Source: Bacteroidetes bacterium ADurb.Bin037
Lineage (GTDB): Bacteria > Bacteroidota > Bacteroidia > Bacteroidales > UBA932
Reading direction: 5' to 3'
Assembly (NCBI GenBank): GCA_002071175.1
Contig: MWER01000004.1
Span: 1-64,000 of the forward strand
Length of the DNA stretch: 64,000 bases
A program made the translations under genes and the position numbers. The notes beneath the pieces were generated by a model, which did not search any database, had not been told where the DNA came from, and saw only the letters and a program-made list of their open reading frames with translations. This document shows positions 3,378 to 64,000 of the stretch, piece by piece; position 1 is the stretch's first letter; each line of letters starts with the position of its first letter.

Positions 3378-4311
3378 TTCTAAGAGGAATTACCCACCCT
3401 GCTATTCCGGATCCGGTCAGACGTGCATCATCTTTGGCCGTCGTGATCAAATGCCAGTTGGGATGCTTTCCCAGCAATTGCTTTATCCGTGACAGGTCTT
3501 TTGCCGTAAACCGGTGGTGATCTGAAAATTCCAGATGACATTCCACCTTATATTGTGTCTGCAGGTAGTCCCGCAGGGGAGAAGCATAAGCTATACCGGT
3601 CAGCAACAGAACGGAAGATCCCTTTTCCGGCATAATTTCAGGATCGTTAAGCGGAATAAGATCGCCGTAAGACATCATCGTGGAAAATACCGGTATATCC
3701 GCTACCGGTTTTATAATTCCGGAAAACGGCATTTTTGGCTTACAACGTGTAAGAACCACACAATCCGCTCTCCGGACGGCAGACGGCAGATCACGCAGAC
3801 GCCCTAAAGGAAGGAGCGTATCTTTCCAGAAAGGCCTGGAACAGTCGGTCATCAGGATATTCTTTTCCGCCCGTATCCGTCTGTGCTGAAAGGCGTCGTC
3901 CAGTATAATCCAGGGATCTTGAGGATGATCCGCCAGCAGACGGCGGACTCCCCTTACCCTGTCCTCACATACTGCCACCACTGCCCGGCAAAAGCGCCTT
4001 TTGATCTGAAGCGGCTCATCCCCGACATCCGAAGCCGTATCGGAAAGGGTAACATACCGGAATCCCCTTGTTTTTCTTCCATATCCCCTGGAAAGGACTA
4101 TGGGGTTCCTGCCTTTCTCCAGGAGCCTTTCCACAAGGAATTCAGTCATGGGCGTTTTGCCCGTTCCTCCCACTGCCAGGTTCCCGACACAGATCACGGG
4201 TACGTCAAAAGACCAGGAGGTGAAGATTCCCCTATCGTAAAGGAAGTGCCTTAGGGCAAGCACCCACGAAAAGGGCGAAAGCCACGTCAGATATGTTTTT
4301 TTTATCCCCAT
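3316..4311 (-). CDS. lpxK: Tetraacyldisaccharide 4'-kinase (LpxK)
   Basis: LpxK phosphorylates the 4' position of the lipid A disaccharide at the inner membrane, a late step of the Raetz pathway. The 331-residue length is normal. Residues about 38-70 hold the P-loop region (CVGNLAVGGTGKTPMTEFL) followed by the conserved VLSRGYGRKTRGF; ILDDAFQHRR comes near residue 137, and the C-terminal TTAKDDARL segment is typical. The first nine codons overlap the 3' end of dusB (10 nt), which suggests translational coupling in a dusB-lpxK operon. The last 20 codons lie antisense to the end of the GH95 gene. Confidence 0.95.
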   Translation of the reverse strand: MGIKKTYLTWLSPFSWVLALRHFLYDRGIFTSWSFDVPVICVGNLAVGGTGKTPMTEFLVERLLEKGRNPIVLSRGYGRKTRGFRYVTLSDTASDVGDEPLQIKRRFCRAVVAVCEDRVRGVRRLLADHPQDPWIILDDAFQHRRIRAEKNILMTDCSRPFWKDTLLPLGRLRDLPSAVRRADCVVLTRCKPKMPFSGIIKPVADIPVFSTMMSYGDLIPLNDPEIMPEKGSSVLLLTGIAYASPLRDYLQTQYKVECHLEFSDHHRFTAKDLSRIKQLLGKHPNWHLITTAKDDARLTGSGIAGWVIPLRISFFSEESAAGFFHLVTGLR

Positions 4312-5276
4312 CTTTCTGCAATATGATCCAGTATCGCAAACAATTGTTGCGGATCGTTCTCCGTTACCAATTTTAAACGGACAGGTTTAAAGTCGGCGAG
4401 TCCTTTGAAATAACTGTTCAAATGCCGTCTCATTTCCAGAACTCCTACCCGCTCTCCCTTCACTTCCAATGATTTGGACAAATGCCTCTTGGCCAGTGAT
4501 ACACGTTCTACAACACCCATCGGGGGCAGTTCCCGTCCCGTCTGTAAATAGTGCCGGATTTCCCGGAAAAGCCAGGGATGCCCGAAACTGGCCCTGCCTA
4601 TCATAATCCCGTCTACCCCATAAGTGTCAAATGCTTGGCGTGCCTGTTGCGGTGTACAAATATCCCCGTTGCCTATTATAGGTATGCGTATCCGCGGATT
4701 GGCCTTGACCCTGCCTATGGGAGCCCAATCTGCCTTCCCTTTGTACATCTGGGCCCTGGTCCTGCCATGTATGGTAAGAGCCGCGATCCCGACATCTTGC
4801 AAGGCTTCGGCCAGGTGTTCAATGATAATTGTGTTTTCATCCCAGCCCAAACGGGTTTTTACAGTCACGGGCACCTTTACCGACCGGACCAACCGGCGGG
4901 TAATGTCCACCATGCCCTCCGGATCACGTAACCAACCGCTGCCTGCACCGCGCTTGGCGATCTTGTTCTTAGGACATCCGAAATTAATGTCTATTACATC
5001 GGGACGGGCTTCCTGTGCAATCAAGGCAGCCTGGAGCAATGCTTCGGCAATATGTCCGTATATCTGTATCCCGATGGGTCTTTCGCTATCCTCAATTACC
5101 AGTTTTTCACGACTCTTGTACGCATCGCGTATCAGCCCGTCGGCAGAAACAAATTCTGTGAACACCATATCCGCTCCGTATTCCTTGCATATATAACGGA
5201 ACGACGCATCACTTACATCTTCCATGGGAGCAAGCAAAAGCGGCTCTTTACCCAGCTCCGTACCGTTTATCTTCAT
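4302..5276 (-). CDS. dusB: tRNA-dihydrouridine synthase (DusB/NifR3 type)
   Basis: This FMN/NADPH enzyme reduces uridine to dihydrouridine in the D-loop of tRNA. The 324-residue protein has an N-terminal LLAPMEDVSDASFR flavin-barrel start, the INFGCPKNKIAKRGAGSG loop with the catalytic Cys, a VTVKTRLGWD strand, and DGIMIGRASFGHPWLF near residue 220, the phosphate-binding end of the TIM barrel. It is the first gene of a two-gene operon with lpxK. A TATCTTTG -7 box lies only 4 nt before the ATG (minus strand 5288-5281), so the mRNA is probably leaderless. This also supports the chosen start. Confidence 0.95.
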   Translation of the reverse strand: MKINGTELGKEPLLLAPMEDVSDASFRYICKEYGADMVFTEFVSADGLIRDAYKSREKLVIEDSERPIGIQIYGHIAEALLQAALIAQEARPDVIDINFGCPKNKIAKRGAGSGWLRDPEGMVDITRRLVRSVKVPVTVKTRLGWDENTIIIEHLAEALQDVGIAALTIHGRTRAQMYKGKADWAPIGRVKANPRIRIPIIGNGDICTPQQARQAFDTYGVDGIMIGRASFGHPWLFREIRHYLQTGRELPPMGVVERVSLAKRHLSKSLEVKGERVGVLEMRRHLNSYFKGLADFKPVRLKLVTENDPQQLFAILDHIAERWG

Positions 5277-5280
5277 ACGA

Positions 5281-5304
5281 CAAAGATAATTTTTTCTACT
5301 TTTG
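5281..5304. promoter_or_regulatory. Back-to-back -7 boxes for dusB (minus) and pfkA (plus)
   Basis: The 35-nt gap between the two start codons holds TATCTTTG on the minus strand (5288-5281, 4 nt before the dusB ATG) and TACTTTTG on the plus strand (5297-5304, 7 nt before the pfkA ATG). Both fit the Bacteroidota -7 consensus TAnnTTTG. I see no clear -33 TTTG for either. Both transcripts would start at or next to the ATG, and the two polymerase sites overlap, so mutual exclusion is possible. Confidence 0.65.
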
Positions 5305-56921: not shown

Positions 56922-58364
56922 ATGAAGTGGAGGTGCCTTTCAGGTATTTTAATACTTTCATTGCTTGTAGGCTGCAAAAACCCGCGCCTGCACCTTCTTA
57001 ACGTCTTTAAAAGTATTGACCTGGAAGTCAGCAACAATTCCCAGGCATATCAACTGTTGACTGATATTTGTGAACGCTACGGACCCCGGATGGCCGGAAC
57101 GGAGTCAGCCGCCTGCGTTGAAGAACTGACTGCCCTTCTGTTTCGTTCCTACGGATATGACAATGTGTTTTTCCAACCTTTCACTTTTAATCAGTGGCAA
57201 CGCGGCACGGCCCGGTTGCGTATTGATACTTCCGGCATATTTACCGATTTCCCGGCTCTCGCTCTAGCCTATACTCCTTCGGGTAACGTGAGTGCACCTG
57301 TAGTAGATGCCGGGAACGGAATGCCCGACGACTATGCAGGTATTGACGTTGCCGGGAAAATCGTTCTGATCCACCTGGGACTGCTCCCCGATACTCCGCC
57401 ACACATTCGTAATGTGCATCGTGCACAGAAATTATCCCTGGCCATAGCTCAGGGTGCCGTAGGCTGTATAGCCGTCAATCCTGTTCCCGGAAATCTGCCC
57501 ACCACAGGAAATTCCACCCTTGACGGGGGAATGATTAAGATCCCGGCCGTGAGCATCTCTTACGAACAGGGAGCTGCCTTAAGGAGTTGCCTGTCCCGTA
57601 AAAAGTGTACGGCAAGACTTAATACGAAAAACACATGCACCCCGGCAAATGCACGCAACATTGTGGCACGGCTGGAAGGGTATGAGTTTCCGGATGAGAC
57701 CATTGTGGTCGGTGCTCACCTGGATTCCTGGGATATTTCTCCGGGAGCTCTGGACAATGCATCCGGAGCCGTCTCGGTACTGGACATTGCCAGGATCTTC
57801 AAAACCCTGGACCTGAAAGTTCGCAGGTCCATTGACTTTGTACTGTTCATGGCCGAAGAACAGGGACATTACGGCTCTGAGCTATATGTAAGGGAAGCCA
57901 AGCACAGGAACCAGCTTGAAGGAATCCGGTATATGTTCAATCACGATATGACAGTCAATACGTACGGATTCAATCTGATGGGCAGGTATGAATCTGAGGA
58001 CCTGATAAGAGAGATCGGTACAATCATTAGCCGCACCGATTCTTCCTTTACAAATACCATTGCACACTTTACCTATCTGGGTAGCGACCATGCTCCTTTT
58101 CTTATGGAAGGGATCTCCACTTTTACACCTTTATGCCGTTATCAGCCATACCATACCTATCATACCAGTGCCGACACACAGCAATACATTACCCCTGAAA
58201 TGATCAATAGCAACATCAGAACGTCTGCAAAAATGATCTATGCACTGGCCAATTCACCGGTCCTTCCGGCCGTGCAACTAAATAATGAACAATTACGTCA
58301 ATACCTTATTGACAATCAATTGCAGGAAGAACTTGTGGTCTCGGGAGACTGGATATGGAACTGA
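56922..58364 (+). CDS. M28-family metallopeptidase lipoprotein
   Basis: M28 peptidases are two-zinc aminopeptidases or carboxypeptidases. The 480-residue lipoprotein (lipobox VGC, Cys18) has a PA domain inserted at about 110-240 (VAGKIVLIHLG, QGAVGCIAVNP). The zinc site shows GAHLDSWD (His266, Asp268), PGALDNASGA, AEEQGHYGSEL and NHDMTVN, with a late His in YHTYHTSADT. It is the first gene of a long plus-strand operon: hydrolase genes begin 19 nt downstream. It probably trims peptides outside the cytoplasm. Confidence 0.94.
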   Translation: MKWRCLSGILILSLLVGCKNPRLHLLNVFKSIDLEVSNNSQAYQLLTDICERYGPRMAGTESAACVEELTALLFRSYGYDNVFFQPFTFNQWQRGTARLRIDTSGIFTDFPALALAYTPSGNVSAPVVDAGNGMPDDYAGIDVAGKIVLIHLGLLPDTPPHIRNVHRAQKLSLAIAQGAVGCIAVNPVPGNLPTTGNSTLDGGMIKIPAVSISYEQGAALRSCLSRKKCTARLNTKNTCTPANARNIVARLEGYEFPDETIVVGAHLDSWDISPGALDNASGAVSVLDIARIFKTLDLKVRRSIDFVLFMAEEQGHYGSELYVREAKHRNQLEGIRYMFNHDMTVNTYGFNLMGRYESEDLIREIGTIISRTDSSFTNTIAHFTYLGSDHAPFLMEGISTFTPLCRYQPYHTYHTSADTQQYITPEMINSNIRTSAKMIYALANSPVLPAVQLNNEQLRQYLIDNQLQEELVVSGDWIWN

Positions 58365-58383
58365 CATTTATAAACACATAATA

Positions 58384-59643
58384 ATGAAACGCTTACTTAC
58401 TCCTCTAGTTGTCATTTTTGCTCTATCGTTGACAGGATGTACACCCCATGATGCCATTGGGGATATTGTCCCGAAATTTTTTGTAGAAGAGTTGAACACA
58501 TGGGATTTTACCGTCAGAGACGCAATGAACGCATTGCTGAACGAATTGGATGTGGATCAAGCAGATCCCACGGTCAACAAAGTCTTGAATTTGCTTGAAA
58601 GCTATCTGAATAAGGAAATCCGCGGTGTTGCCATTTCCTACAGGTCTTTCGATCCTTTCGGGAACCCGGTACTTGCGACCGGTGCCTTTTTCTATCCCCG
58701 TGACCTCAAACCGAGGGGAATTGTTGAGATCCCTCCCATTGCCCATCTTGACCGAAATGCCAGCGCTGCCATTTATATCGGCAGAAAACGTTTTTTTGAA
58801 GAAGCTTTTCCCTGTATGTTAAATTACATTACGATCAACACCGATCTTTTGGGAGTGTTATACACAGGGAATATACCCCGACCGTTCCTGCACGATGCCA
58901 ATTCCGGTCTTGTAGCGTACCATATGCGAAAAGCCGTTGAAGAATATCTGCTTATTACTGAAAATTACAGGCTTGGGAACCGTAGTTCCATATTCGGTTA
59001 TTCCCTTGGAGGTGCGTCCGCCATGTCAATCGCAAAATACTATACTGAAAACCAGACCGGGATCAAGGTTGACCAGGTTTTTACCGGAGGTGGCGTATAC
59101 GACGCGCTGGAAGCCTTCAAGGCATATGCACGTACCGAAAAAAGTGATTACCTGGCTATCCCGATGGTGATCATTGCCATGGATACTTTTTATAAACTAA
59201 ATCTGGATTATAGCAAGATTTTTGCTAATGGAATGGAAAATCCCGTGAATTCACCCGATCCTGGAGTAGGAGGTGACGGTTATGCCTATTGGTTTGACGG
59301 CACCCACAGTTCGGGAAGCATACACAAACGCTGGGGCAGTAACCTGCGCAATTATATGCATGAAGACTTCTTCCACCAGGAACCGCGCGGAGAGTTCCTC
59401 AAACTGCAGGAATGTATGCAGATCAATTCGATTGTGTACAACTGGGTCCCGAACCCGCTGATAACAATACGCGTGCTACACAGCGGGGAGGACAATCTGA
59501 TCCCCGTCGAATGTGCAGATCTGTTGTATAAGGTTTATAAAGAAAAAGGATGCTCCATTTATTATAACCGGACCACGGGAGACCATTATGAAGCAGGAGC
59601 CGAATTTATGATGACAGCCATGCTTTACCTGTTATTGAAATGA
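58384..59643 (+). CDS. Alpha/beta-hydrolase lipoprotein, paralogue 1
   Basis: The 419-residue protein has a lipobox (LTGC, Cys19), so it is anchored outside the inner membrane. The ATG 58384 is chosen because it gives this signal peptide; upstream in-frame codons overlap the M28 gene. The nucleophile elbow is FGYSLGG (Ser207), with a likely Asp370 in SGEDNLIP and His401 in TGDHYEAG. Family-wide marks shared with the next three hydrolases are ISYxxxDPxGxPV near residue 75 and YMHEDFF near residue 330. The fold recalls secreted lipases and esterases (LIP-like); the ester or peptide substrate is unknown. The stop overlaps the start of paralogue 2 (ATGA). Confidence 0.88.
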   Translation: MKRLLTPLVVIFALSLTGCTPHDAIGDIVPKFFVEELNTWDFTVRDAMNALLNELDVDQADPTVNKVLNLLESYLNKEIRGVAISYRSFDPFGNPVLATGAFFYPRDLKPRGIVEIPPIAHLDRNASAAIYIGRKRFFEEAFPCMLNYITINTDLLGVLYTGNIPRPFLHDANSGLVAYHMRKAVEEYLLITENYRLGNRSSIFGYSLGGASAMSIAKYYTENQTGIKVDQVFTGGGVYDALEAFKAYARTEKSDYLAIPMVIIAMDTFYKLNLDYSKIFANGMENPVNSPDPGVGGDGYAYWFDGTHSSGSIHKRWGSNLRNYMHEDFFHQEPRGEFLKLQECMQINSIVYNWVPNPLITIRVLHSGEDNLIPVECADLLYKVYKEKGCSIYYNRTTGDHYEAGAEFMMTAMLYLLLK

Positions 59644-60917
59644 TAAAAAAGTATTTGTATTTAATTGTCGTATTTTTGCCTCTCGTCATATGGGAGGGTT
59701 GTACGCCGCATGACAGCATTCGAAAGGATATTGTTCCCCGTTATTTTGTTGAAGAGTTGGCTGTATGGGACTTCACTGCAAGTTTCGCCCTGGAGTCAAT
59801 TCAGGAATTAGCCAAAGGGCTTGATTTTGAATTTTCGGAAAATACCCGCCAATTGCTGCTGAAATTGTTTGAAAAGGGACTTCACCGGGAAATCCGGGGT
59901 GTATCCCTTTCTTACAGAACGGTCGATCCTTTTGGGGACCCGGTGCTTACAACCGGTGCCTTTTTTTATCCACGGGACCTAAAGCCGGAAGGAGTCGTTG
60001 AAATCCCGCCCATTGCCCTGATGCACAATGAAAATGCTCCCTCCCTGTATGTTGAGCGTAAGGAATTCTCATTTGAAAGCGTCCCCTGTATGCTGGGTTA
60101 CATTATCATTAATCCCGATTTCCTGGGAGTGCGTTATACCGAAGATTGGCCCAGACCGTATCTGATCATGGACAACTCGGGTGTTGTGGCTTACCATATG
60201 CGCAAAGCAGTAGAAGAATACCTCCTGATGACCGAAAACTACCGGCTGCCCAGCCGGAGTACCATCATGGGTTATTCGCTGGGGGGAAGCACGTCTATGG
60301 CTATGGCCAAGTATTATGAGGAAAATCCCACCGGGATCATTGTAGACAGGGTTTATACGGGAGGGGGTGTATATGATGGGCTGGAAGCTTTCAGGGCCTA
60401 TGCAAGAACCGAGAAGAACGATTATCAGTCTATCCCGATGGTGATCATAGGACTCGACACGTATTACAACCTCAATCTGGATTATACCAAAATTTTCACC
60501 AATGGCATGGAAAACCCCGTTGATTCACCCAATCCTGAAGAAGGAGGCGACGGATACGTCTGGTGGTTCAGCGGCGAACGCAGCCTCTCAAGTATTGTCC
60601 GGCGCTGGGGCAGTAACCTGCGCAATTACATGCATGAAGATTTTTTCAATCAGCAACTGACCGGGGAATTCCTGAAATTAAAAGAGCCGCTTGAGGCTAA
60701 TTCAATAGTATACAACTGGACTCCAAGGCCGACTCTGAAGATCAACCTTATACACTCGGGGCAGGACAACCTGATCCCGGTGGAATGTGCCGACCTGCTT
60801 TACAATGAATACAAGAAGAGAGGCTGTGCCATCTCGTACGAACGGACTACCGGGGATCATTTTGATGCAGGATTCAGATTTATTGCAACCGTCATTTTTT
60901 ATCTATTAGTTAAATAA
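59640..60917 (+). CDS. Alpha/beta-hydrolase lipoprotein, paralogue 2
   Basis: Close paralogue of the preceding protein, with 425 residues, lipobox WEGC (Cys21) and the same TPHD mature start. The nucleophile is Ser213 in MGYSLGG, then SGQDNLIP and TGDHFDAG. It shares the stretches VEIPPIA, YHMRKAVEEYLL and VYTGGGVYD with paralogue 1, so the two come from a tandem duplication. Translation is coupled through the 4-nt overlap. The next start (a 45-residue ORF) is 8 nt downstream. Confidence 0.88.
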   Translation: MIKKYLYLIVVFLPLVIWEGCTPHDSIRKDIVPRYFVEELAVWDFTASFALESIQELAKGLDFEFSENTRQLLLKLFEKGLHREIRGVSLSYRTVDPFGDPVLTTGAFFYPRDLKPEGVVEIPPIALMHNENAPSLYVERKEFSFESVPCMLGYIIINPDFLGVRYTEDWPRPYLIMDNSGVVAYHMRKAVEEYLLMTENYRLPSRSTIMGYSLGGSTSMAMAKYYEENPTGIIVDRVYTGGGVYDGLEAFRAYARTEKNDYQSIPMVIIGLDTYYNLNLDYTKIFTNGMENPVDSPNPEEGGDGYVWWFSGERSLSSIVRRWGSNLRNYMHEDFFNQQLTGEFLKLKEPLEANSIVYNWTPRPTLKINLIHSGQDNLIPVECADLLYNEYKKRGCAISYERTTGDHFDAGFRFIATVIFYLLVK

Positions 60918-60925
60918 TTAGCATT

Positions 60926-61063
60926 ATGATTACCTTAACAAGCAACCCTCATTGGATATGGAAAGTATTCGCCATCCTGGGACCGCTTATGTGCCTGATA
61001 GGCAACTTGTGGTTCGGATGGGGATTTGAATTGATTTCCTATATTGTTGGACAAATCCTTTAA
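60926..61063 (+). CDS. Small membrane protein A (45 residues)
   Basis: An ATG-TAA frame gives 45 residues with one or two hydrophobic spans. The core KVFAILGPLMCLIGN is followed by two Trp-Gly pairs. It starts 8 nt after the paralogue-2 stop and ends 18 nt before the next small ORF. The core is alignable without gaps with small ORF A' (K-x3-I-x-GPL, a later Ile, then WG). No known family is recognised. Confidence 0.65.
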   Translation: MITLTSNPHWIWKVFAILGPLMCLIGNLWFGWGFELISYIVGQIL

Positions 61064-61081
61064 CCACTCATTTGCACGGTT

Positions 61082-61162
61082 ATGAATGGACTTCTAGACA
61101 TTGCCACTTTGTTCGGATTTATAATTACTTTCCTTGTATTTTTTTTCTTGGGAATTATGTAA
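61082..61162 (+). CDS. Small membrane protein B (26 residues)
   Basis: A 26-residue frame made almost wholly of one transmembrane stretch (LFGFIITFLVFFFLGIM). It ends in FLG plus two residues, as does B'. Acidic residue Asp6 precedes the span. It lies between A and A' with gaps of 18 and 15 nt. Confidence 0.6.
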   Translation: MNGLLDIATLFGFIITFLVFFFLGIM

Positions 61163-61177
61163 ACAAAATTATTCACT

Positions 61178-61270
61178 ATGAACATCAATTTAAATCTGAT
61201 CTTTAAGATCGCAGGTATAGCCGGACCGCTGATCATGATGATATGCCTGATCATCATGGCTTGGGGATAA
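61178..61270 (+). CDS. Small membrane protein A' (30 residues)
   Basis: A 30-residue frame, NINLNLIFK followed by the span IAGIAGPLIMMICLIIMAWG. It is a shorter relative of A with the same GPL and terminal WG at the same spacing. It lies 19 nt before B'. Confidence 0.65.
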   Translation: MNINLNLIFKIAGIAGPLIMMICLIIMAWG

Positions 61271-61289
61271 CAATTAATATTATACAGAA

Positions 61290-61370
61290 ATGGATCTGAT
61301 ATCAAAAATATTGATCATTGTGGGATCTCTGATATCCCTGCTGACTTTTATTTTCCTGGGGTCATTCTAA
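61290..61370 (+). CDS. Small membrane protein B' (26 residues)
   Basis: A 26-residue frame, MDLISK then the span ILIIVGSLISLLTFIFLGSF. It has the same length as B and the same G-x5-L-x-F-x-FLG pattern. It ends 7 nt before hydrolase paralogue 3, so the group is probably translated from one mRNA. Confidence 0.6.
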   Translation: MDLISKILIIVGSLISLLTFIFLGSF

Positions 61371-61377
61371 CATCTAT

Positions 61378-62577
61378 ATGACACATAAAGGGTTAAGGTT
61401 GACCTTTTTGTTGCTGGCTTTCGTATCGTGTAACAAAACGGATCAGATTGCCGTACAGCCGAAAGGTTATCTGTCGGCTGTATTGCGTTCTCAGGAATTC
61501 AGCACGCATGAAATGATTGATTTAACGCTCACGGATTTCCCGGAACTGGAGCAGACCATGCTGGAACCCGTTACCGATCTGTTCAACTTCGATATGCGGG
61601 TCAAGGTGACTGCTATTTCATATCATACGGTTGATCCAAAGGGTGACCCGGTGCTTGCCTCCGGTATTATCGTTCAACCGCTTGGGGTGGCTTCAAGAGG
61701 GGTGGTGCACGTCCCTCCCACTACACCTCTCTCCAGCCTGGAAGGAGGCAGTGACCTGCTGATCATCACCGAAGGGGTTTTCGCGCTCCTCGGCTTCACG
61801 GTGATCGTGCCGGATTTGATCGGGAGCGGAATCAGCGCCGACCTTCCACAACCTTTTCTATTCATGAACAATACAGGCAGGGTGTGCTACGATATGCATA
61901 TGGCGGCAATGGAGTACTATGATAAATATACGCAGGAAAGGCTGCCCTCCCATATGAGCATTGTCGGTTATTCGGGCGGGGCCACCGGAGCGGTTGCCCT
62001 GCTTCATTATATAGACGGCCTGCCCTCCTCGCCTGTCACAGTGACTAATCTTTTTGCAGGAGGGGGAGTATATGATATGCTATCGACTTTTCAGGTTTTG
62101 AAAGAACGGCGTTATGCAGAGTATCCGCTGACACCGTTGCTCATAAAATCACTGGACTACTGGCACGCTCTGGAACTGGATTATTCCAAAGTATTTACAG
62201 GACCCTTGTTGGAAAACATGGACGATTGGCTGGATGGTACAAGGAATGCCCGGCAGATGAAGGAGCTCATAGATCCCCGCCTGGACACATACATGCACCC
62301 CGATTTTTTCACCCCGGAGAAAAATCCCGAGATCCTGAAAATTGAGAACGCTTTGTCTTTACATACACTGCTCCGGAACTGGAAAACAAAAACCCGCATC
62401 TTCCTTGGGCATGCTACAGATGATCTTTCCGTTCCCTTTTCAGAAACACAGGCTTTGTACCATATGCTTAAGTCCCGATCGAATGTATCGATGACCTCCG
62501 GAACCGGCGGTCACTACGGCTATGGCATAAAATTTTTTATAAGTGCACACTTGTATTTAACGATTGATCAATTATGA
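61378..62577 (+). CDS. Alpha/beta-hydrolase lipoprotein, paralogue 3
   Basis: The 399-residue protein has a lipobox (FVSC, Cys18). It shares ISYHTVDPKGDPV and YMHPDFF with the others but is clearly from a second subgroup. The nucleophile is Ser199 in VGYSGGATG, the acid probably Asp349 in HATDDLSVP, and the base is in TGGHYGYG. It overlaps paralogue 4 by 4 nt (ATGA). Confidence 0.86.
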   Translation: MTHKGLRLTFLLLAFVSCNKTDQIAVQPKGYLSAVLRSQEFSTHEMIDLTLTDFPELEQTMLEPVTDLFNFDMRVKVTAISYHTVDPKGDPVLASGIIVQPLGVASRGVVHVPPTTPLSSLEGGSDLLIITEGVFALLGFTVIVPDLIGSGISADLPQPFLFMNNTGRVCYDMHMAAMEYYDKYTQERLPSHMSIVGYSGGATGAVALLHYIDGLPSSPVTVTNLFAGGGVYDMLSTFQVLKERRYAEYPLTPLLIKSLDYWHALELDYSKVFTGPLLENMDDWLDGTRNARQMKELIDPRLDTYMHPDFFTPEKNPEILKIENALSLHTLLRNWKTKTRIFLGHATDDLSVPFSETQALYHMLKSRSNVSMTSGTGGHYGYGIKFFISAHLYLTIDQL

Positions 62578-63713
62578 ACCGTTATTTTATTGATATACTA
62601 AAAGAAGGAGATTTTTCCATCAACGAGGTTTTTGTAGAAGTCAAAAAAGACTTTCCTGCGCTGAAACTTGCCTGGATAGAACCTCTTCTGAAAGCGCTGT
62701 TCAAAATGAAGGTGCGCATAACCGCCATATCCTACAATACGGTTGACCCTAATGGATCCCCGGTTGTGTCTTCAGGGATCATAATCAGACCCATTAACAA
62801 AAAGCCAAAGGGTGTGCTGCATTTTCTGCCATCTGCCAATATTGACAAATTCGGTTCGGGAAGCGATGTGCTGCTTATCTTTGAGGGGGTACTCGCCTTC
62901 CTGGGATATATTGTGATCATACCCGACCTGCTGGGAAACGGCATAACAAAAGATACGGTGGAGTATCCTTTCCTGATCAACGGAAATACGGGACAGGTAG
63001 CATATGACATGCACAGGGCCGCCATGGAATATTTTCCGACAGTCCTGGGTAAGCCTTTGCAAAAGCATATTTCCATAGGCGGTTATTCGATGGGTGGAAC
63101 CGGGGCGCTGGCATTGATCCGGCACATTGAAAAGGAAAATCCTTCCGATATTATTATAGACAGAGCAATTATAGGAGGCGGTCTATACGATTTGAACGTT
63201 GCTTTTGAAGAATTTGAGAAGACGGGGATTTCTTTGTATCCAGCAGCTCCGGGGGCCTTCAAAGCATACGATATATGGTATAATTTGAACCTTGACTATA
63301 CAAAGTTATTCAGGGGTTCTTTGCTGGAAAACATGCATAGCTGGCTGGACAGGACTCATAACAGGAAGGAGCTTACAGAGTGGATGGGAAAAGACCTGCA
63401 CGCGTATATGCACCCTGATTTTTTCACTGCGGGAAAAAACATGGAAATCAATAAGCTTTGGGAAAAATTTAAGGAAAATTCGCTGGCGGACGGATGGTCT
63501 CCTAAGACTAAAATTGTATTTTCACACGCTTCCGATGATTTTACAGTCCCCACGCGTGTTGCAACATATACTTATGAACGCTTCCGGGAACAAGGAGCAC
63601 CTGTCCGCATTCGTTACGGTAAGGGAGGACATTACGAATTTGGAAAATGGTATTTCTTACGTATGGGAATTTACCTGATCCTGAAACGCATGGCCTTCTG
63701 GACCCGTTCCTGA
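62574..63713 (+). CDS. Alpha/beta-hydrolase, paralogue 4, without signal peptide
   Basis: The 379-residue protein lacks a signal peptide or lipobox at its N terminus (MNRYFIDILKEGDFSINEVF), unlike the other three. Its mature part starts where the paralogues begin after the lipobox region, so it looks like a form that has lost export or is cytoplasmic. The triad appears complete: Ser172 in GGYSMGG, HASDDFTVP and KGGHYEFG. It belongs with paralogue 3. It is the last gene of the operon and is convergent with the LytTR gene 29 nt away. Confidence 0.86.
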   Translation: MNRYFIDILKEGDFSINEVFVEVKKDFPALKLAWIEPLLKALFKMKVRITAISYNTVDPNGSPVVSSGIIIRPINKKPKGVLHFLPSANIDKFGSGSDVLLIFEGVLAFLGYIVIIPDLLGNGITKDTVEYPFLINGNTGQVAYDMHRAAMEYFPTVLGKPLQKHISIGGYSMGGTGALALIRHIEKENPSDIIIDRAIIGGGLYDLNVAFEEFEKTGISLYPAAPGAFKAYDIWYNLNLDYTKLFRGSLLENMHSWLDRTHNRKELTEWMGKDLHAYMHPDFFTAGKNMEINKLWEKFKENSLADGWSPKTKIVFSHASDDFTVPTRVATYTYERFREQGAPVRIRYGKGGHYEFGKWYFLRMGIYLILKRMAFWTRS

Positions 63714-63742: not shown

Positions 63743-64000
63743 TCAGGATCTTCTTCCCGCAACCTGACGTGTATATAAAGAATCCAGCCTATCCCGGTAA
63801 ACACGGCCGACAGGCAGGCTGATCTGCCCGGGATATTTTAAGACAACCCTGCTGCGGTCTGCACTTTGGATTTTATCCAGCGAAACAATGAAAGATTTAT
63901 GTATCCGTATGAAACGTTCGCTCGGAAGATCCTTTTCAAGGGCTTTGAGCGAACCGTATGCCGTAATCTTTTCATGTAACATGTGATAGGTTATGTATTC
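63743..64000 (-). CDS. LytTR-type DNA-binding regulator (C-terminal part; 5' end outside window)
   Basis: The frame stays open to the right edge, giving 86 residues of the C-terminal domain. It shows the LytTR pattern: TAYGSLKALEKDL, FIRIHKSFIVSLDKIQSADRS, then SLPVGRVYRDRL. In Bacteroidota such domains usually follow a response-regulator receiver domain and pair with a histidine kinase of the LytS type. Only the DNA-binding part is seen. It is convergent with the hydrolase operon, so control of that operon is possible but not shown. Confidence 0.85.
   Translation of the reverse strand, partial: EYITYHMLHEKITAYGSLKALEKDLPSERFIRIHKSFIVSLDKIQSADRSRVVLKYPGQISLPVGRVYRDRLDSLYTRQVAGRRS

Follow-up and report, generated by a model that had tools for sequence, protein, structure and literature searches.

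Four very short reading frames in the middle of a hydrolase gene cluster raise two questions: are they genes, and if so, what might their products do beside these enzymes? The window that we analyzed is a 64,000-nucleotide stretch of the Bacteroidetes bacterium ADurb.Bin037 genome (contig MWER01000004.1, positions 1 to 64,000). In it, hydrolase gene H2 ends at 60917 and H3 starts at 61378, and the 460-nt gap between these two alpha/beta-hydrolase gene pairs is filled by four ATG-to-stop frames in the order A-B-A'-B', all on the forward strand: A (60926..61063, 45 aa), B (61082..61162, 26 aa), A' (61178..61270, 30 aa), and B' (61290..61370, 26 aa). The spacers H2-A, A-B, B-A', A'-B' and B'-H3 measure 8, 18, 15, 19 and 7 nt. 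An earlier note on this DNA had described the frames, with spacers of 7-19 nt, as a duplicated two-gene unit encoding membrane mini-proteins. Rechecked on the sequence, the frames, lengths and spacers are as it gave them, and we find both the K-x3-I-x-GPL motif common to A and A' and the equal length and G-x5-L-x-F-x-FLG pattern common to B and B'. Its claim of a terminal WG at equal spacing in A and A' holds in part: a W lies at the same distance after GP in both, but WG is terminal only in A', and A runs 12 residues beyond it (FELISYIVGQIL).

We located the region in relatives by searching genomes with H3, and found it in 12 other species of the genus, where the order of the four frames is unchanged and their lengths differ little. 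In profile searches, A is present in all 13 genus genomes (E<=3.5e-23), as is the B/B' family. A, A' and B' are intact in all 13 species searched and B in 12, the exception being genome G007, where the B frame is broken by two indels, one within a T run; this may be a sequencing error or gene loss. The in-frame pN/pS ratio is 0.22 for A, 0.51 for B, 0.21 for A' and 0.24 for B', compared to 0.74-5.0 in the two shifted frames. Over independent species pairs, the 134 differences fall 36, 7 and 91 at codon positions 1, 2 and 3 (p about 3e-16), and this bias is significant for each frame singly (p 5e-7 to 4e-4). Moreover, the spacers have the lowest conservation in the alignment and hold most of its gaps. 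The contrast in pN/pS and the codon-position bias rule out chance frames, and all four mini-genes are under purifying selection on their coding sequence, with B the most weakly constrained. The earlier note had thought a chance origin unlikely and would have given up its reading had the frames or their order not been conserved in relatives or had they lacked synonymous bias; none of these outcomes occurred, and we are close to certain that the four frames are real genes.

The four genes are also related to one another. When local alignment scores were compared with those of column-shuffled alignments, A/A' gave z 6.8 and B/B' z 12.4, and none of 300 shuffles reached the observed score. Profile-profile comparison with hhalign likewise paired A with A' (E 1.6e-6) and B with B' (E 8e-11). 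Judged by these scores, A/A' and B/B' are paralogues that arose by duplication of an A-B unit. Comparisons of A-type with B-type sequences scored lower (z 4.8-6.4, above nearly all column shuffles; hhalign E 9e-5 to 6e-4), and the pattern [KR]-x5-G occurs in 13/13 A, 13/13 A', 13/14 B' and 5/12 B sequences. All four may thus share one common ancestor, a single origin being uncertain because all of them are short and hydrophobic. Two genomes show the units moving independently: in G010 (locus L041), A-B and A'-B' lie in two different gaps with another hydrolase gene between them and both pairs intact, and in G001 a further B' copy, differing at 5 of 81 nt and encoding an identical protein, lies in the next gap beside a duplicated H2. 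The separated pairs and the extra copy argue that the A-B pair is a modular unit. With the conserved order, the purifying selection and the likeness within each pair, they bear out the duplicated unit that the earlier note had proposed.

The only second locus of either mini-gene family in the genus genomes is in G012, which carries another A-B pair at a contig end (L047, G012:C114) that is closer to that of G003/G007; it may be contamination, the assembly being listed at 5% contamination, or a second operon. The mini-gene tree is too short for its deep branches to be resolved, and the groups that it does support match the H4 tree wherever the two are both resolved.

We found no credible match to the A profile outside the genus in 399 family genomes (386 of them non-genus), 393 order genomes and 395 phylum genomes, and none to the B profile in 300 family genomes (287 non-genus). 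Matches outside the genus, at E about 0.002 or worse and several with internal stops, were taken as chance. Neither the hydrolase clusters of a second genus in the family (L044, L081-L083) nor single hydrolase genes elsewhere have a comparable array, and searches of Pfam, NCBIfam, PHROG and the PDB gave no credible relative of the mini-proteins. The weak library matches (DUF4006, 0.19; Neurensin, 0.24; antiporter subunit G, 0.1; a mycoplasma lipoprotein model, 0.007; phrog_5552, 0.017) were judged to be composition effects. The genus has a public record in the metagenome-assembled genome Bacteroidales bacterium Bact_09 (LUZA01000015), and literature searches found no published report of such a mini-gene array. 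Genus-restricted small protein families are common in themselves, making up more than half of the families with at least three members in a global catalogue (PMC11364881). Single-span membrane proteins of small size that assist larger proteins are a known kind; this family, and the tandem arrangement of four paralogues beside a lipase cluster, appear to be new to the libraries and literature searched.

Each mini-protein is below 50 aa and contains one stretch hydrophobic enough to span a membrane, with maximum 19-residue Kyte-Doolittle means of 1.7 (A), 2.6 (B), 2.4 (A') and 2.5 (B'). In A, the predicted membrane helix covers residues about 10-33 and is followed by a hydrophobic C-terminal extension; an AlphaFold model built from two sequences shows one helix at residues 9-44 (pLDDT 82). 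One membrane helix is likewise predicted in B. The net charge of the window's four sequences is -1 to +1, and the membrane helices combine a hydrophobic moment of 0.21-0.31 with high mean hydrophobicity and are not amphipathic. Beyond the K/R that precedes the helix, there is no conserved polar residue that could line a pore.

The array sits in a run of genes on the forward strand that begins with an M28 family peptidase with a PA domain (56922..58364; Pfam PF04389, E 1.8e-36), the first gene of the presumed operon. It continues with the lipoprotein hydrolases H1 (58387..59643; start likely at 58387, the longest frame beginning at 58285) and H2 (59640..60917), the array, the lipoprotein hydrolase H3 (61378..62577), and H4 (62574..63713, 379 aa). 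All these genes share a strand and their junctions are short or overlap, which makes co-transcription of the whole run M28 peptidase-H1-H2-A-B-A'-B'-H3-H4 likely. A promoter scan, which does not cover Bacteroidota promoters, gave no excess over shuffles. The same terminator-like stem and T run occurs at corresponding places inside H1 (58666-58686) and H2 (59940-59960), probably inherited by paralogy. A gene for a LytTR DNA-binding domain (63743-63982, reverse strand; Pfam E 4.5e-14) converges on the cluster.

The hydrolases of the cluster form a local paralogous family. Their number upstream of the array varies from one to five among the genus genomes, and two clusters, at L037 and L040 (G006 and G009), hold seven paralogues in tandem. 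The hydrolase between the two mini-gene pairs of G010 (L041 reverse complement 3954-5294) is very divergent (branch length 2.35), an unusual acquisition or a fast-evolving copy. A GYSxG motif, the GxSxG elbow, occurs in every H3 and H4 and in the majority of the remaining hydrolases; the three hydrolases that do not have it, one each in G006, G008 and G009, may be inactive or altered. Among solved structures, Legionella lpg1103 (4ezi) and LipA of Xanthomonas come closest in sequence. Foldseek searches with a model of H4 (pLDDT 77.5) matched these two proteins as well (E 1e-21 to 1e-19), followed by Candida antarctica lipase A, with matches overall spanning E 1e-21 to about 1e-13 and TM scores by query length of 0.76 to about 0.55. 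Its modeled fold makes H4 a putative lipase/esterase of the CalA/LipA type.

H4 is the only hydrolase type that always adjoins the array. Full-length orthologues of it lie after the array in each of the 12 genomes whose contig permits the check, and G003 has a contig-end fragment. They are 73-100% identical within the genus and at most 44% identical to proteins outside it, so that H4 orthologues and array are equally genus-restricted. H3 is missing in G006, G008 and G009, all of which keep the array, and in the stretches examined from these three genomes we did not see the M28 peptidase upstream of it. H1, H2 and H3 start with lipoprotein-type signals; H4 has no signal peptide in any of the 12 orthologues, and its frame begins directly at the part that comes after the signal in the paralogues. 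At its other end, H4 carries a cationic, aromatic C-terminal tail (FGKWYFLRMGIHLILKRMAFWTR) that is present in all orthologues, reads FGKW(Y/F)FLRM..HL..KR.A.WTR in most, and extends past the ends of the paralogues, adding basic residues absent from them. With lipoprotein paralogues all around it, the missing signal and its own tail, H4 appears to have moved from outside the cell to inside it.

What, then, might the mini-proteins do? Our leading reading, held tentatively, is that they are single-span subunits that co-assemble in the inner membrane and hold or activate H4 at its cytoplasmic face. They would be translated from one mRNA with the lipase/esterase genes and insert into the inner membrane, N-terminus on the cytoplasmic side, a topology guessed from one or two charges per peptide. 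Conserved Gly/GP helix faces would pack them into a small hetero-oligomer, which would serve H4 as a membrane anchor or activator while the basic, aromatic tail of H4 lies on the cytoplasmic membrane surface. For the same class of ester or lipid substrate, the lipoproteins H1-H3 would do their part outside the inner membrane, leaving H4 to complete the process inside. The earlier note had listed subunits or regulators of the hydrolases, peptide signals and small toxins side by side; we favor membrane subunits or accessories of the hydrolases over a toxin or signal peptide, short of proof. Counting against an anchor for H4 are the weak constraint on B and its break in G007, and the need for four paralogues is unexplained by it. 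The adjacency of H4 could be simple operon inheritance, and its tail may simply close the hydrolase fold. In its fullest form, in which four paralogous single-helix proteins of 26-45 aa replace one four-helix protein and both anchor and control a cytoplasmic lipase that has lost its export signal, we consider the idea rather improbable; if true, a four-part membrane assembly of that kind would be previously undescribed.

The same operon and conservation data would also fit a small inner-membrane channel or carrier formed by the four peptides themselves, moving the fatty acids, acyl esters or peptides that the lipoprotein hydrolases and the M28 peptidase release by hydrolysis, which H4 then processes inside. 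Four paralogous helices could form a four-helix bundle, and sequence alone does not separate such a pore from an anchor for H4. We nevertheless regard a channel as unlikely, given that no conserved polar residue other than the K/R ahead of the helix could line a pore and that searches of Pfam, NCBIfam and the PDB showed no resemblance to a known transporter.

Less likely again are released or surface-active peptides that keep the secreted lipases near the cell. The precedent is LspU, a small protein from the sal1 lipase mRNA in Staphylococcus: small ORFs flank the lipase gene genus-wide there and change the location of the lipase SAL1 (PMC12607899). LspU-type peptides are amphipathic, whereas those of the array are uniformly hydrophobic; H1-H3 already bear lipoprotein signals of their own, and the cluster has no dedicated exporter gene.

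The array peptides, small, hydrophobic and encoded in tandem copies, resemble type I toxins in size and composition. A membrane-depolarizing toxin of the type I toxin-antitoxin kind is nonetheless very doubtful here: spacers of 7-19 nt inside a coding operon leave little space for separate control, and the array is found in all genus genomes rather than patchily. The same steady distribution, at one fixed place in every member of the genus, speaks against a multi-peptide leaderless bacteriocin, which we consider highly improbable. Aureocin A70 also consists of four small, related peptides encoded in tandem (30-31 aa, compared to 26-45 aa here; PMC6131525), but its peptides are cationic, carrying +4 to +5 where ours carry -1 to +1, and the neighbors of our array are hydrolases and an M28 peptidase, and genes for an ABC transporter, immunity or a regulator are absent from the cluster. 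Finally, we give hardly any credence to the idea that the frames are leaders or spacers whose own translation sets that of the downstream hydrolases, irrespective of the peptide made, for all the tight spacing and presumed co-transcription, since the amino acid sequence is strongly conserved, the units move and duplicate apart, and the spacers are the least conserved part.

Set beside known systems, the enzymes of this locus share the alpha/beta-hydrolase fold and GxSxG elbow with LipA of Xanthomonas oryzae, Legionella lpg1103 (4ezi) and Candida antarctica lipase A, but are at most 20% identical to them, and H4 is without an export signal. In psbEFLJ-type operons, four genes for small membrane subunits of photosystem II stand in a row, as in the array; their products are subunits of a large membrane complex, and none is encoded at our locus. 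Like LspU, the mini-genes are small ORFs found genus-wide beside a lipase gene, but LspU is an amphipathic, exported, PSM-like peptide of a Gram-positive bacterium, and the array peptides are hydrophobic and single-span. Aureocin A70 comes with secretion and immunity genes, which are not seen here.

The mini-proteins are like CydX, KdpF and AcrZ in their length of 25-50 aa, their one hydrophobic helix and their conservation. CydX forms part of an enzyme complex, and the partner to which AcrZ binds is a membrane pump (PMC4325964, PMC7267776). We found no sequence relation to any of the three; moreover, the array holds four tandem paralogues instead of one, and its neighbors, the hydrolases, are not integral membrane proteins. 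Annotation usually misses proteins of this length, and the named, described cases are single; four paralogues in a fixed order, with duplication, splitting and extra copies over 13 species, form a natural series that lets one ask how a membrane helix of only 26 residues finds a partner and why evolution retains it. Should the link to H4 prove true, the array would also show an exported enzyme family yielding a membrane-bound version inside the cell.
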